Shown here: in pieces, positions 24,096-26,879 of the stretch | Numbering within the stretch: the stretch's first letter is position 1 | Layout: each line of letters starts with the position of its first letter | Assembly: GCF_030519655.1 (NCBI RefSeq) | Contig: NZ_JAUMIT010000002.1 | Coordinates: 124,001-188,000, forward strand | Reading direction: 5' to 3' | From: Wenyingzhuangia gilva | GTDB lineage: Bacteria; Bacteroidota; Bacteroidia; Flavobacteriales; Flavobacteriaceae | Length of the DNA: 64,000 nt | Position numbers and translations under genes: made by a program | The notes under the pieces: model-generated | The model's input: only the letters and a program-made list of their open reading frames with translations | What the model was told of the DNA's origin: nothing | The model's database searches: none

Positions 24096-25199
24096 ATGAA
24101 GTATTTTAAACAATTATCAATCATTACATTTTCTATCTTATTCTTTGTGTCTTCATTGATGTCTGCACAAGTTTTGAATAAGTCTTGGCAAAAGATAACA
24201 AGAATGGATGATGGCGAATGGTTTGCCTCAGATGAAGCCAAAGCAGTTGCAGAAAATGTACTGCTTTATCAAAGAGAAATTGGAGGATGGCCTAAAAATA
24301 TTCAAATGCAAAAGCCTCTTTCGACAGAGGAAAAGCAAGAATTACAAGCTTTAAAATCTACAGGAAAAGGAGCAACAACAGATAATGGAGCTACCATCCA
24401 GGAAATGGTTTTTTTGTCTAAAATGTACAGACAAACTAAAAATGAAACTTATAAAAAAGCTTTTTTAAAAGGAGTAGATTATGTGTTAGAAGCACAGTAC
24501 GATAATGGAGGATGGCCTCAGTTTTATCCTCTAAAAAAAGGATATTATACGCATATCACTTATAATGATAATTCAATGGTTAATATCATGGAGTTGTTAA
24601 AAGAACTTAGAGATGATTCTGGAGTATATGCTATCAAACCAGATTCAAAGACTATAGAAAAAATCAAAGTTGCTTTTGACAAAGGAGTGGATTGTATTAT
24701 TAAAACACAATACAAGCAAAACGGTGTATTAACAGCATGGTGTGCACAACACGATGAAAATACTTTTGAACCTGCCAAGGCTAGAGCTTATGAATTACCA
24801 TCGTTAAGTGGTGCGGAATCTGCTAAAATAGTATTGTTATTAATGTCCATTGAAAATCCATCAGAAGAAGTAATCATTGCTGTAAATGCAGCTCATGCTT
24901 GGTTTAAAAAAGTAATGATTACTGGTTTAAGAGAAGATAGAGAATATAATGACAAAGGAAAGGTTAGTAAAAAAACAATGGTTAAAGATCCTGATGCAAA
25001 ACCTATTTGGGCTCGTTTTATGGAATTGGACGACAATAAACCTTTCTTTTGTGATAGAGATGGAATTAAAAAATATGATATTTCAGAAATTGGAGAAGAA
25101 CGTAGAAACGGATATGCTTGGTATGTAAATGAGCCAAAAGAGGTGATGAAAAAATACGATAGATGGAGTGATAAGTACAACGTAAAAAAAAAAGACTAA
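24096..25199 (+). CDS. PL10 family pectate lyase, ends in a frame break before CE8
   Basis: PL10 lyases cleave polygalacturonate by beta-elimination in an (alpha/alpha)3 toroid. The 367 residues begin with a signal peptide (cleavage near MSAQ, no lipobox), so the protein is exported. Family blocks are present: GGWPKNIQMQKPL, TTDNGATIQEM, YDNGGWPQFYPL, HITYNDNSMVNIM and the C-terminal RFMELDDNKPFFCDRDG, then RRNGYAWY. The frame ends KYNVKKKD-stop right after ten A residues (25184-25193). With one extra A the frame would continue as KKKRLKPIDEYNVVVAKDG into the CE8 domain, giving a PL10-CE8 fusion of about 673 residues. The lyase domain itself is complete either way. Confidence 0.92.
   Translation: MKYFKQLSIITFSILFFVSSLMSAQVLNKSWQKITRMDDGEWFASDEAKAVAENVLLYQREIGGWPKNIQMQKPLSTEEKQELQALKSTGKGATTDNGATIQEMVFLSKMYRQTKNETYKKAFLKGVDYVLEAQYDNGGWPQFYPLKKGYYTHITYNDNSMVNIMELLKELRDDSGVYAIKPDSKTIEKIKVAFDKGVDCIIKTQYKQNGVLTAWCAQHDENTFEPAKARAYELPSLSGAESAKIVLLLMSIENPSEEVIIAVNAAHAWFKKVMITGLREDREYNDKGKVSKKTMVKDPDAKPIWARFMELDDNKPFFCDRDGIKKYDISEIGEERRNGYAWYVNEPKEVMKKYDRWSDKYNVKKKD
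25184..25193 (+). other. A10 run at the PL10/CE8 junction, candidate slippage site
   Basis: Ten consecutive A residues followed by GAC-TAA in the PL10 frame. One A gained by RNA polymerase slippage, or a -1 ribosomal slip on AAA-AAA, bypasses the stop and enters the CE8 frame. That frame is open from 25175 (upstream stop TAA at 25172-25174), so the switch has to occur within about 22 bases, and this run is the only slippery sequence there. A sequencing error in the homopolymer or a real mutation cannot be excluded. Confidence 0.6.
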
Positions 25200-25207
25200 A
25201 ACCAATT

Positions 25208-26116
25208 GATGAGTACAATGTAGTTGTTGCTAAAGATGGTAGTGGTGATTATACGAGTATTCAAGAAGCCATTAATCATTCAAAATCTTTTCCATATCAA
25301 AGAGTTGTGATTTCTGTTAAAAACGGTGTGTATCACGAAAAGATAAAAGTACACGAATGGAATACAAAAATCACTTTAATAGGGGAGGATAAAGACAAAA
25401 CTATTATTACTCACAATGATTTCTTTGGAAAGATAGATTTAGGTAGAAATAGTACTTTTTTTACATGGACGATGTTGGTAGAGGCTAATGATTTTGTGAT
25501 GAAAAATATAACGGTAGAAAATTCATCAGGAAATGTAGGGCAAGCCATTGCGCTATCTGTGGTGTCTGACAGAGTCGCTATAGTGAATTGTAAATTATTA
25601 GGAAATCAGGATACTTTATACGCTTCAGGAGAAGGAAAACAATATTATAAAGATTGTTATATAGAAGGAACTACTGATTATATTTTTGGAGAAGCCACAG
25701 CTCTTTTTGAAAATTGTGAAATTTATAGTAAAAGCAATTCTTATGCAACTGCTGCTTCTACAACACAAGATTCTAATTATGGTTTTGTATTTAAGAACTG
25801 TAAGTTAACAGCGGCCAAAGAGGTTACAAAAATGTATTTGGGGAGACCTTGGAGAGTATACGCTAAAACTGTTTTTATCAATTGTGAATTGGGAAAACAT
25901 ATTTTACCAGAAGGTTGGCATAATTGGTCTAAAAAAGAAGCCGAACAGACTACTTTTTATGGGGAGTATAAAAATACAGGCGAAGGGGCACAACCTGGAA
26001 AAAGAGTAAGTTGGTCTCATCAATTAAAAAAATCAGCAGCTAAAAAATATAGTATAGAAAATATTTTAGGAGAGCATAAAAAATCAATAAATCATAAATG
26101 GTATGAAAATTTATAA
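25208..26116 (+). CDS. CE8 pectin methylesterase domain, without its own start; likely C-terminal half of a PL10-CE8 protein
   Basis: CE8 enzymes remove methyl esters from homogalacturonan on a right-handed beta-helix. Homology starts at DEYNVVVAKDGSGDYTSIQ (from 25208), the usual N-terminal strand of the family. Catalytic signatures follow: GNQDTLYA and GTTDYIFGEA with the two catalytic Asp residues, and YLGRPWR with the binding Arg. No ATG exists in this frame before the domain, and GTG at 25307 would cut off the first strand and about 34 conserved residues. There is also no signal peptide. Both facts suggest translation as an extension of PL10 through the A10 run. The coordinates given mark the start of homology, not a start codon. 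The stop overlaps the CE12 start by 14 bases. Confidence 0.85.
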   Translation, partial: DEYNVVVAKDGSGDYTSIQEAINHSKSFPYQRVVISVKNGVYHEKIKVHEWNTKITLIGEDKDKTIITHNDFFGKIDLGRNSTFFTWTMLVEANDFVMKNITVENSSGNVGQAIALSVVSDRVAIVNCKLLGNQDTLYASGEGKQYYKDCYIEGTTDYIFGEATALFENCEIYSKSNSYATAASTTQDSNYGFVFKNCKLTAAKEVTKMYLGRPWRVYAKTVFINCELGKHILPEGWHNWSKKEAEQTTFYGEYKNTGEGAQPGKRVSWSHQLKKSAAKKYSIENILGEHKKSINHKWYENL

Positions 26117-26879
26117 AATTTGTTTAATAGCATGTTTCATTGTTTTACAATCGTGTAAAAAATCAGAGGAAACCAAATCAGAAAATAAAGAAACTTCACA
26201 CATTACAATCTATGGAATTGGAGATTCTACCATGGCTGATAAAAAGAACCCTGAAACCAACCCTGAACATGGTTGGATGCAAGTATTGCCTACGTTTTTT
26301 AATGACAATGTAACAATTGAAAATCATGCCGTGAACGGAAGAAGTTCTCGTAGTTTTATTGGTGAAAAAAGATGGGAGAAAGTTTATACTAAATTAAAAG
26401 AAGGAGATTATGTGGTGATTGAATTTGGACACAACGATCAAAAATTTAAATCTCCAGATCGTTATACAAATCCCTATACAGGATATAGACACAATTTGAT
26501 AAAGTTTGTAGAAGAAACTAGAAAAAAAGGGGCACATCCTATTCTATTAACTTCTATTGTAAGAAGAAACTTTAATGAATATGGAACGTTAATCGATACT
26601 CACGGAAATTATCCTTTAGTTGTGCGTTTGGTAGCACAAGAGTATAATGTTCCTTTGGTAGATTTGCAATATTTAACAGAAGTTTTAGAAGAGTCTTATG
26701 GAGTAGAAGATTCTGAAAAATTACATTTACATTTTGAGCCTGGAGAAGTAGATTATTATCCAAATGGAAAATCAGATGACACACATTTGTCAAAATTAGG
26801 AGCTACAGAGGTTAGTAAATTATTTGTACAAGATATTAAAAGTAAAAACTTGCCTTTGGCAAAGTATATTAAGGAATAA
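26103..26879 (+). CDS. CE12 rhamnogalacturonan acetylesterase, SGNH hydrolase lipoprotein
   Basis: CE12 enzymes remove acetyl groups from rhamnogalacturonan or other pectic chains. The 258 residues have a lipobox (LQSC, Cys18) and the SGNH blocks: GDSTMA with the nucleophile Ser42, VNGRSSRSF, GHNDQKF with the block III Asn, and the C-terminal DDTHLSKLGA with the catalytic Asp and His. The start codon lies inside the 3' end of the CE8 frame, a 14-base overlap that points to translational coupling. It is the last enzyme gene of the pectin operon. Confidence 0.9.
   Translation: MKIYKICLIACFIVLQSCKKSEETKSENKETSHITIYGIGDSTMADKKNPETNPEHGWMQVLPTFFNDNVTIENHAVNGRSSRSFIGEKRWEKVYTKLKEGDYVVIEFGHNDQKFKSPDRYTNPYTGYRHNLIKFVEETRKKGAHPILLTSIVRRNFNEYGTLIDTHGNYPLVVRLVAQEYNVPLVDLQYLTEVLEESYGVEDSEKLHLHFEPGEVDYYPNGKSDDTHLSKLGATEVSKLFVQDIKSKNLPLAKYIKE

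Follow-up and report, generated by a model that had tools for sequence, protein, structure and literature searches.

Probable RNA polymerase slippage at an A10 run between a pectate lyase and a pectin methylesterase frame in Wenyingzhuangia gilva

Can a run of ten adenines at the end of a pectate lyase gene deliver a pectin methylesterase that has no start codon of its own? The question is raised by a locus in the window, the whole 64,000-nucleotide stretch of Wenyingzhuangia gilva DNA analyzed here, in which a PL10 frame stops one codon beyond the run and a CE8 frame continues in the -1 frame. The following features were delimited.

24096..25199, + strand: 367-aa ORF of the PL10 pectate lyase, signal-like at its N-terminus; default product (Pec_lyase E 1.3e-112)
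24270..25145, + strand: PL10 catalytic domain, residues 59-350 by Pfam
25175..26116, + strand: CE8 open frame, -1 relative to PL10, behind a stop at 25172-25174
25184..25193, + strand: A10 slippery run, in the PL10 frame GTA AAA AAA AAA GAC TAA
25197..25199, + strand: TAA that ends the short product, one codon past the A10 run
25217..26068, + strand: CE8 pectin methylesterase domain, residues 15-298 of the open frame (Pectinesterase E 4.5e-80; 1gq8 alignment)
26103..26879, + strand: GDSL esterase, its ATG inside the last 14 bases of CE8

The split locus and the proposed recoding

Both enzymes were recognized by profile. PL10 matched PF09492 (Pec_lyase) over positions 1-291 of 292 (Pfam, E 1.3e-112) and TIGR02474 with 351.9 bits against a cutoff of 189.8, the nearest solved relative was 1gxm (E 1.6e-60), and the whole Pfam match, residues 59-350 of 367, is contained in the short product. 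CE8 matched PF01095 (Pectinesterase) over positions 1-295 of 298 (Pfam, E 4.5e-80) and carried QAxAL, QDTL, D[FY]IFG, and LGRPW, which we take to be the catalytic motifs of the family; the NCBIfam PemA/PemB equivalogs scored far under their cutoff.

The first-pass annotation had proposed that PL10 ends after ten A's with GAC-TAA, that the CE8 frame opens at 25175 after a stop at 25172 without start or signal peptide, and that one added A would produce an in-frame bifunctional protein with a single signal peptide. Frame analysis bore this out: the run comprises exactly ten A's at 25184-25193 and is followed by the TAA at 25197-25199, and ahead of the domain the CE8 frame of the window has no ATG, GTG, or TTG and no signal peptide, the earliest of these codons being GTG 25307, already within the domain. 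One A added at the run gives a 673-aa PL10-CE8 product, and the computed mature masses, 39.7 and 74.4 kDa if cleavage after residue 24 is assumed, agree closely with the predicted 40- and 74-kDa pair. The window contained 9 A9 matches, fewer than the mean of 27 in its shuffles.

We interpret the locus, with a probability of roughly 0.78, as one recoded gene in which RNA polymerase slippage at A10 leads to a free lyase (~40 kDa) and a lyase-esterase (~74 kDa). Most transcripts would carry ten A's and give secreted PL10 ending in Lys-Lys-Lys-Asp-stop. In some, the RNA-DNA hybrid would realign over the A run and RNA polymerase would add an extra A, and such an A11 transcript would be translated normally into the -1 frame, yielding the 673-aa secreted PL10-CE8 from one start and with one signal peptide; the efficiency, by analogy with tssM and dnaX, would perhaps be 10-50%. 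The arrangement is observed, and recoding at PL10-CE8 is very probably real, conserved, and functional; the polymerase rather than the ribosome as the agent, the efficiency, the usefulness of a two-product ratio, and the existence of both proteins are inferred, there being no RNA or transcript, read, or protein data.

Conservation of the junction among relatives

A homopolymer sequencing error and a fresh frameshift mutation had both been kept as alternatives in the first-pass annotation, and the length of the run in related genomes bears directly on them. In Wenyingzhuangia marina DSM 100572, the junction is CGTAAAAAAAAAAGACTAAAACCAA, identical to that of the window with the same A10 and offset, and both frames are intact. 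The two CE8 domains are 92% identical, with dN 0.044, dS 0.72, and dN/dS 0.061, and for PL10 dN/dS was 0.079 and dS 0.61. The reads behind the window were not seen and its assembly consists of 33 contigs (3.35 Mb), but the identical run and offset in W. marina, together with a CE8 dN/dS of 0.06, argue that neither an error nor a new mutation is responsible, and 17 more split loci from other genomes, with A9 or A10 and the same offset as in all 19, contradict these alternatives to the point where they are hardly credible. ATT 25205 was considered as a rare CE8 start and ruled out, W. marina having ACT there. No match to either PL10 or CE8 was found in five other Wenyingzhuangia genomes searched.

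CE8 loci were collected by a family search, a scan of genome contigs, and a Flavobacterium search, one list of CE8 matches comprising the best 80 of 292. Altogether 228 loci were classified and 46 removed as duplicates, leaving 182 non-redundant; the more distant CE8 matches L002-L004 and L010-L020 and matches listed without a locus stand outside the 228. PL10-CE8 fusions, whose presence in Flavobacteriaceae the earlier annotation had suggested looking for, turned out to be the commonest form, with 128 of the 182 loci fused in frame; 35 had CE8 without PL10 directly upstream, and 19 were split. The shift required, one added A or -1, was identical in all 19 split loci; none had the other offset, and a same-frame stop between PL10 and CE8 did not occur among the 182 loci. 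The longest linker A run was A9 (n = 7) or A10 (n = 12) in split loci and ranged from A4 to A10 in in-frame fusions, where it reached at least A9 in 44 of 128 and A7-A8 in 29 of 128. The difference for runs of at least A9 (19/19 split versus 44/128 in frame) gave p 1.7e-8 in a Fisher test with loci taken as independent; the loci are related, and per-locus p-values therefore overstate independence. This comparison lends strong support to the annotated idea that slippage at the A run gives a bifunctional protein with a single signal peptide.

By genus label, some of the Flavobacterium labels being assumed, the split loci comprise 17 from Flavobacterium and 2 from Wenyingzhuangia, 94 in-frame fusions belong to Flavobacterium, and the split state was absent from all 34 fusion loci of other genera. 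The split junctions read GTA-A10-GAC-TAA in 2 loci, TGG followed by A9 or A10 in 9, and G-A10-G in 8, so that the run occupies all three codon phases. At least six changes of the split state were needed on the tree, which came from a quick search and has some long branches; three were forced by starred branches, and about six lineages are involved. Conservation and purifying selection on the CE8 of the shifted frame are observed: CE8 dN/dS was 0.035-0.152 at dS 0.48-2.6 over all pairs within four split groups, the four CE8 motifs are present in 19/19 split loci, and run length does not vary inside a group (A9 in 7/7, A10 in 6/6, and A10 in both Wenyingzhuangia). In L208, compared with its clade, an upstream A6 has become A5 and a base has been gained downstream of the run with the offset kept, as read from the junctions by eye.

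The in-frame locus L190 has TGG-A10, and its sister split group (L101 and relatives) has TGG-A9. Judged from these junctions, polarity may flip between them by one A in the run.

An own start with a signal-like segment was detected by a crude hydrophobicity test in 34 of the 35 CE8 loci without PL10 and in none of the 19 split loci. A separate CE8 start was ruled out, 15 of the 19 split loci having no ATG, GTG, or TTG before or just inside the domain; in the other four (L100, L101, L107, and L118), only GTG or TTG is available in the CE8 frame. The lone exception among the 35 PL10-less loci is L201 (G587:C1, CE8 at 1513 of the oriented locus), in which a 51-aa signal-peptide ORF and an A9 run are followed by CE8 at the same offset (-1 frame), and one added nucleotide gives a 357-aa product. 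From this layout, slippage seems needed in L201 for any CE8 export.

Polymerase, ribosome, and the dnaX control

The window genome provides an internal control, its dnaX (contig C29:327753, L161/L303) being split at the same GTA-A10-G cassette and needing the same added nucleotide. All distinct runs of at least ten A's in the window genome (19) and in W. marina (30) were examined, A9 runs being left out, for two open frames on the A strand, each 100 codons or longer, extending over the run; by this criterion, the only split genes were PL10-CE8 and dnaX, in each of the two genomes. Among 55 dnaX matches, 30 junctions were read (L303-L332). The junction GAT GTA AAA AAA AAA GCA GTA ACT TCA/TTA TAA was present in 7/7 Wenyingzhuangia genomes (L303-L309), and GAA AAA AAA AAG, split at A10, in 10/10 Flavobacterium junctions read. 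In split dnaX, one added nucleotide leads to 553-578 aa and one lost nucleotide to 350-352 aa, and the open frame with the tau end is only 207-252 codons long in all 42 Wenyingzhuangia and Flavobacterium genomes among the dnaX matches. Thirteen genomes of other genera have dnaX in a single frame, with A10 or A11 at the same place in 13/13, and the run was A10 or A11 in all 30 loci read. Cells of the window genus and of Flavobacterium very probably recode at exactly the dnaX A10 cassette, in the same direction; dnaX is presumably needed for growth. Two-ORF dnaX with ten A's has already been described (PMC3711429, available in part).

In 29 of 30 dnaX loci, a hairpin abutted the A run or ended at most two bases from it (p<=0.05, shuffling). 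Covariation of the stem was weak, being reached by 103 of 500 shuffles, and the hairpin could be a by-product since the protein is conserved there. Directly 5' of the run, hairpins occurred in 6 of 19 split loci (the six-locus GCG group) and in 2 of 44 in-frame loci with at least A9 (p<=0.05), and none was found 5' of the run at the window junction. Stem-loop-stimulated slippage is reportedly the subject of Penno 2015. A hairpin in this position is a stimulator of polymerase slippage as described in the accessible part of PMC5009743, and the window site, lacking it, may therefore slip less than dnaX.

Ribosomal -1 frameshifting on A_AAA_AAA or A_AAA_AAG would make the same two proteins from uniform A10 mRNA, and every junction read has one or the other of these sequences in the PL10 frame. 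The single shift direction in 19/19 split loci agrees with it, one direction within a cluster being a sign of ribosomal frameshifting for the GeneTack authors (PMC3711429, in the text available); in favor of the polymerase, A's are added in described slippage cases, as far as the available parts of PMC5009743 and PMC4256274 go. Both the window and W. marina have GGAG 19 bases upstream of the run, which would suit a ribosome; over the split junctions, Shine-Dalgarno-like bases lie upstream at scattered places, that of the window at -19. Seven A's would do for a ribosome, yet 0/19 split sites have fewer than nine, and A7-A8 is the longest run of 29/128 in-frame linkers. The run falls in all three phases, no downstream RNA structure was found at the 19 split junctions (mean z -0.28, 0/19 below -2), and dnaX holds A10 or A11 in 30/30 loci read, all of which speaks against the ribosome and makes it an unlikely agent, though not an excluded one. 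A run always of at least nine, independent of phase, with dnaX runs of the same lengths, favors the polymerase, and slippage at nine A's and a hybrid of 9-10 bp fit polymerase slippage (PMC5009743, seen in part). Replication slippage, by which changes in run length would turn CE8 on and off between cells, could draw on the replication-slippery nature of A9-A10 tracts (PMC1088944 and PMC3711429, both in part) and on the A10 of in-frame L190 where its split sister group has A9, but run length is constant within groups (with one genome per species only) and no locus has the other offset. dnaX shares the cassette, and a replication gene is, by inference, not expected to phase-vary; such switching is very improbable.

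Polymerase slippage would also set the ratio of lyase to lyase-esterase, an inference that leads to the question of whether the run and the ratio are selected. Runs of at least A9 occurred at 4.41 per kb in 147 PL10-CE8 linkers and at 0.038 per kb in the coding DNA of 80 named loci with linkers masked, a density about 116 times higher in linkers. Lys-Lys-Lys (KKK) was encoded by A's alone in 34 of 46 cases in in-frame linkers versus 28.3 expected from codon use (p 0.096), and in 10 of 73 cases in the coding DNA of those 80 loci versus 44.2 expected, which amounts to avoidance; the contrast between linkers and other genes is strong. Avoidance of all-A KKK is at least lifted in the linker, and positive selection for the run is not proven because the KKK excess is not significant against plain codon use. 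Invariant AAA codons were considered as proof of selection and found weak, all-AAA Lys not being unusual by itself; AAA use among conserved Lys columns was 50-79% in split groups. The 44 in-frame A9/A10 linkers comprise 35 from Flavobacterium and 9 from other genera (9 of the 34 fusions there), and the run is therefore not tied to the genera with split dnaX. Of the 44 in-frame fusions with at least A9, 38 reached a stop within 3 codons after one added nucleotide (25.9 expected by codon resampling, loci taken as independent), and 18 did so after one lost nucleotide (14.0 expected by codon resampling).

A wider proposal, which we consider evenly poised, is that A9-A10 slippage is a general two-product switch in a secreted pectin enzyme of Flavobacteriaceae and works in both polarities, the short form being the default and the long form made on slippage in 2 Wenyingzhuangia and 17 Flavobacterium loci, and the long form being the default and the short form made on slippage in many in-frame A9/A10 fusions with a close stop after one added nucleotide. 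The lyase to lyase-esterase ratio would then be under selection, the split form would have originated several times, in genera that already rely on such slippage for dnaX, and the GDSL esterase of the window could be coupled too. It competes with tolerated damage, in which linker frameshifts persist since CE8 is rescued by slippage and a free lyase does no harm, the run being tolerated rather than selected and the ratio having no function. The slippage mechanism is common to both readings, and only the usefulness of the ratio is in dispute between them. L201, without PL10, still needs slippage and has only the 51-aa signal-peptide ORF as its short product; lifted avoidance would explain the 34/46 all-A KKK in frame against 28.3 expected (p 0.096); and poly-A rescue of an interrupted gene is known (PMC4256274, in the part available). 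Tolerated damage is harder to reconcile with split groups of 7 and 6 loci that have each kept a single run length over CE8 dS values of about 0.5-2.6, and with the stop within 3 codons after one added nucleotide in 38/44 in-frame fusions with at least A9 (25.9 expected, loci as independent), and we regard it as possible but somewhat doubtful.

Genomic setting and comparison with known systems

Neighbors of the locus match the GH28, BD-FAE, DUF4861, GH88, Pel9A-like beta helix, and GDSL lipase families, and the neighborhood is probably a pectin-degradation cluster. The window CE8 is not the only one of its genome: another contig gave two more strong CE8 matches, one in a 330-codon open frame with a signal-like N-terminus and one in a 642-codon open frame, and there is a weak match in a long frame. 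An overlap of CE8 and GDSL esterase similar to that at 26103-26116 of the window is present in W. marina (L005). The GDSL esterase is possibly coupled to CE8 translation, in which case slippage at the A run would raise its translation as well.

In the papers examined, which were seen in part, programmed bacterial slippage concerns replication, secretion systems, insertion sequences, and endosymbiont genes. No report of slippage in a pectin-degrading or other polysaccharide-degrading enzyme was found in the open literature, searched by titles, abstract starts, and partial lists with most subscription journals outside. If our reading is true, a secreted carbohydrate-degrading enzyme is made in two forms by slippage in about six lineages, and the enzyme class is unexpected. 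Split genes look broken and could be called a pseudogene or "lyase only," so pectin-degrading capacity would be misread. With dnaX in the same genomes as an unusually good control, the frequency of polymerase slippage in these Bacteroidota and the importance of the ratio are directly testable.

Among known systems, tssM of Citrobacter rodentium and Yersinia pseudotuberculosis has, as far as PMC4256274 was available, a poly-A close to where the short form ends, and a second form arises from added A's; slippage makes the long form in one of these species and the short one in the other. Both the position of the poly-A and the two polarities resemble PL10-CE8. In the same partial source (PMC4256274), ribosomal frameshift signals are reported absent at tssM1 and the efficiency is 15-25%. 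tssM1 differs in having 11 A's, in being a type VI secretion gene, and in resting on RNA and protein evidence, PL10-CE8 being a secreted enzyme with A9-A10 and comparative evidence only.

The in-frame PL10-CE8 fusions of Flavobacteriaceae have the same domain order and linker place as the split loci, but a continuous frame, at which slippage would give the lyase alone. In E. coli dnaX, the downstream stimulator is a stem-loop. E. coli dnaX, in the portions of the sources at hand, is like PL10-CE8 in its -1 direction on an A-rich slippery sequence and its two C-terminal forms (PMC3711429 and PMC5009743) and differs in its A_AAA_AAG, upstream Shine-Dalgarno-like element, and downstream stimulator, PL10-CE8 being without downstream structure. 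In Thermus thermophilus dnaX, unlike at PL10-CE8, the long form is the zero frame (PMC5009743, in part). The two-ORF dnaX, whose short form is the zero frame and whose long form needs a -1 shift at A10 (PMC3711429, in the part available), shares this layout with the window locus; it differs in the hairpin against the run, found in 29/30 dnaX loci and absent at the window PL10-CE8, and in being a housekeeping gene, whereas PL10-CE8 is a gene of a pectin cluster that carries the same cassette.
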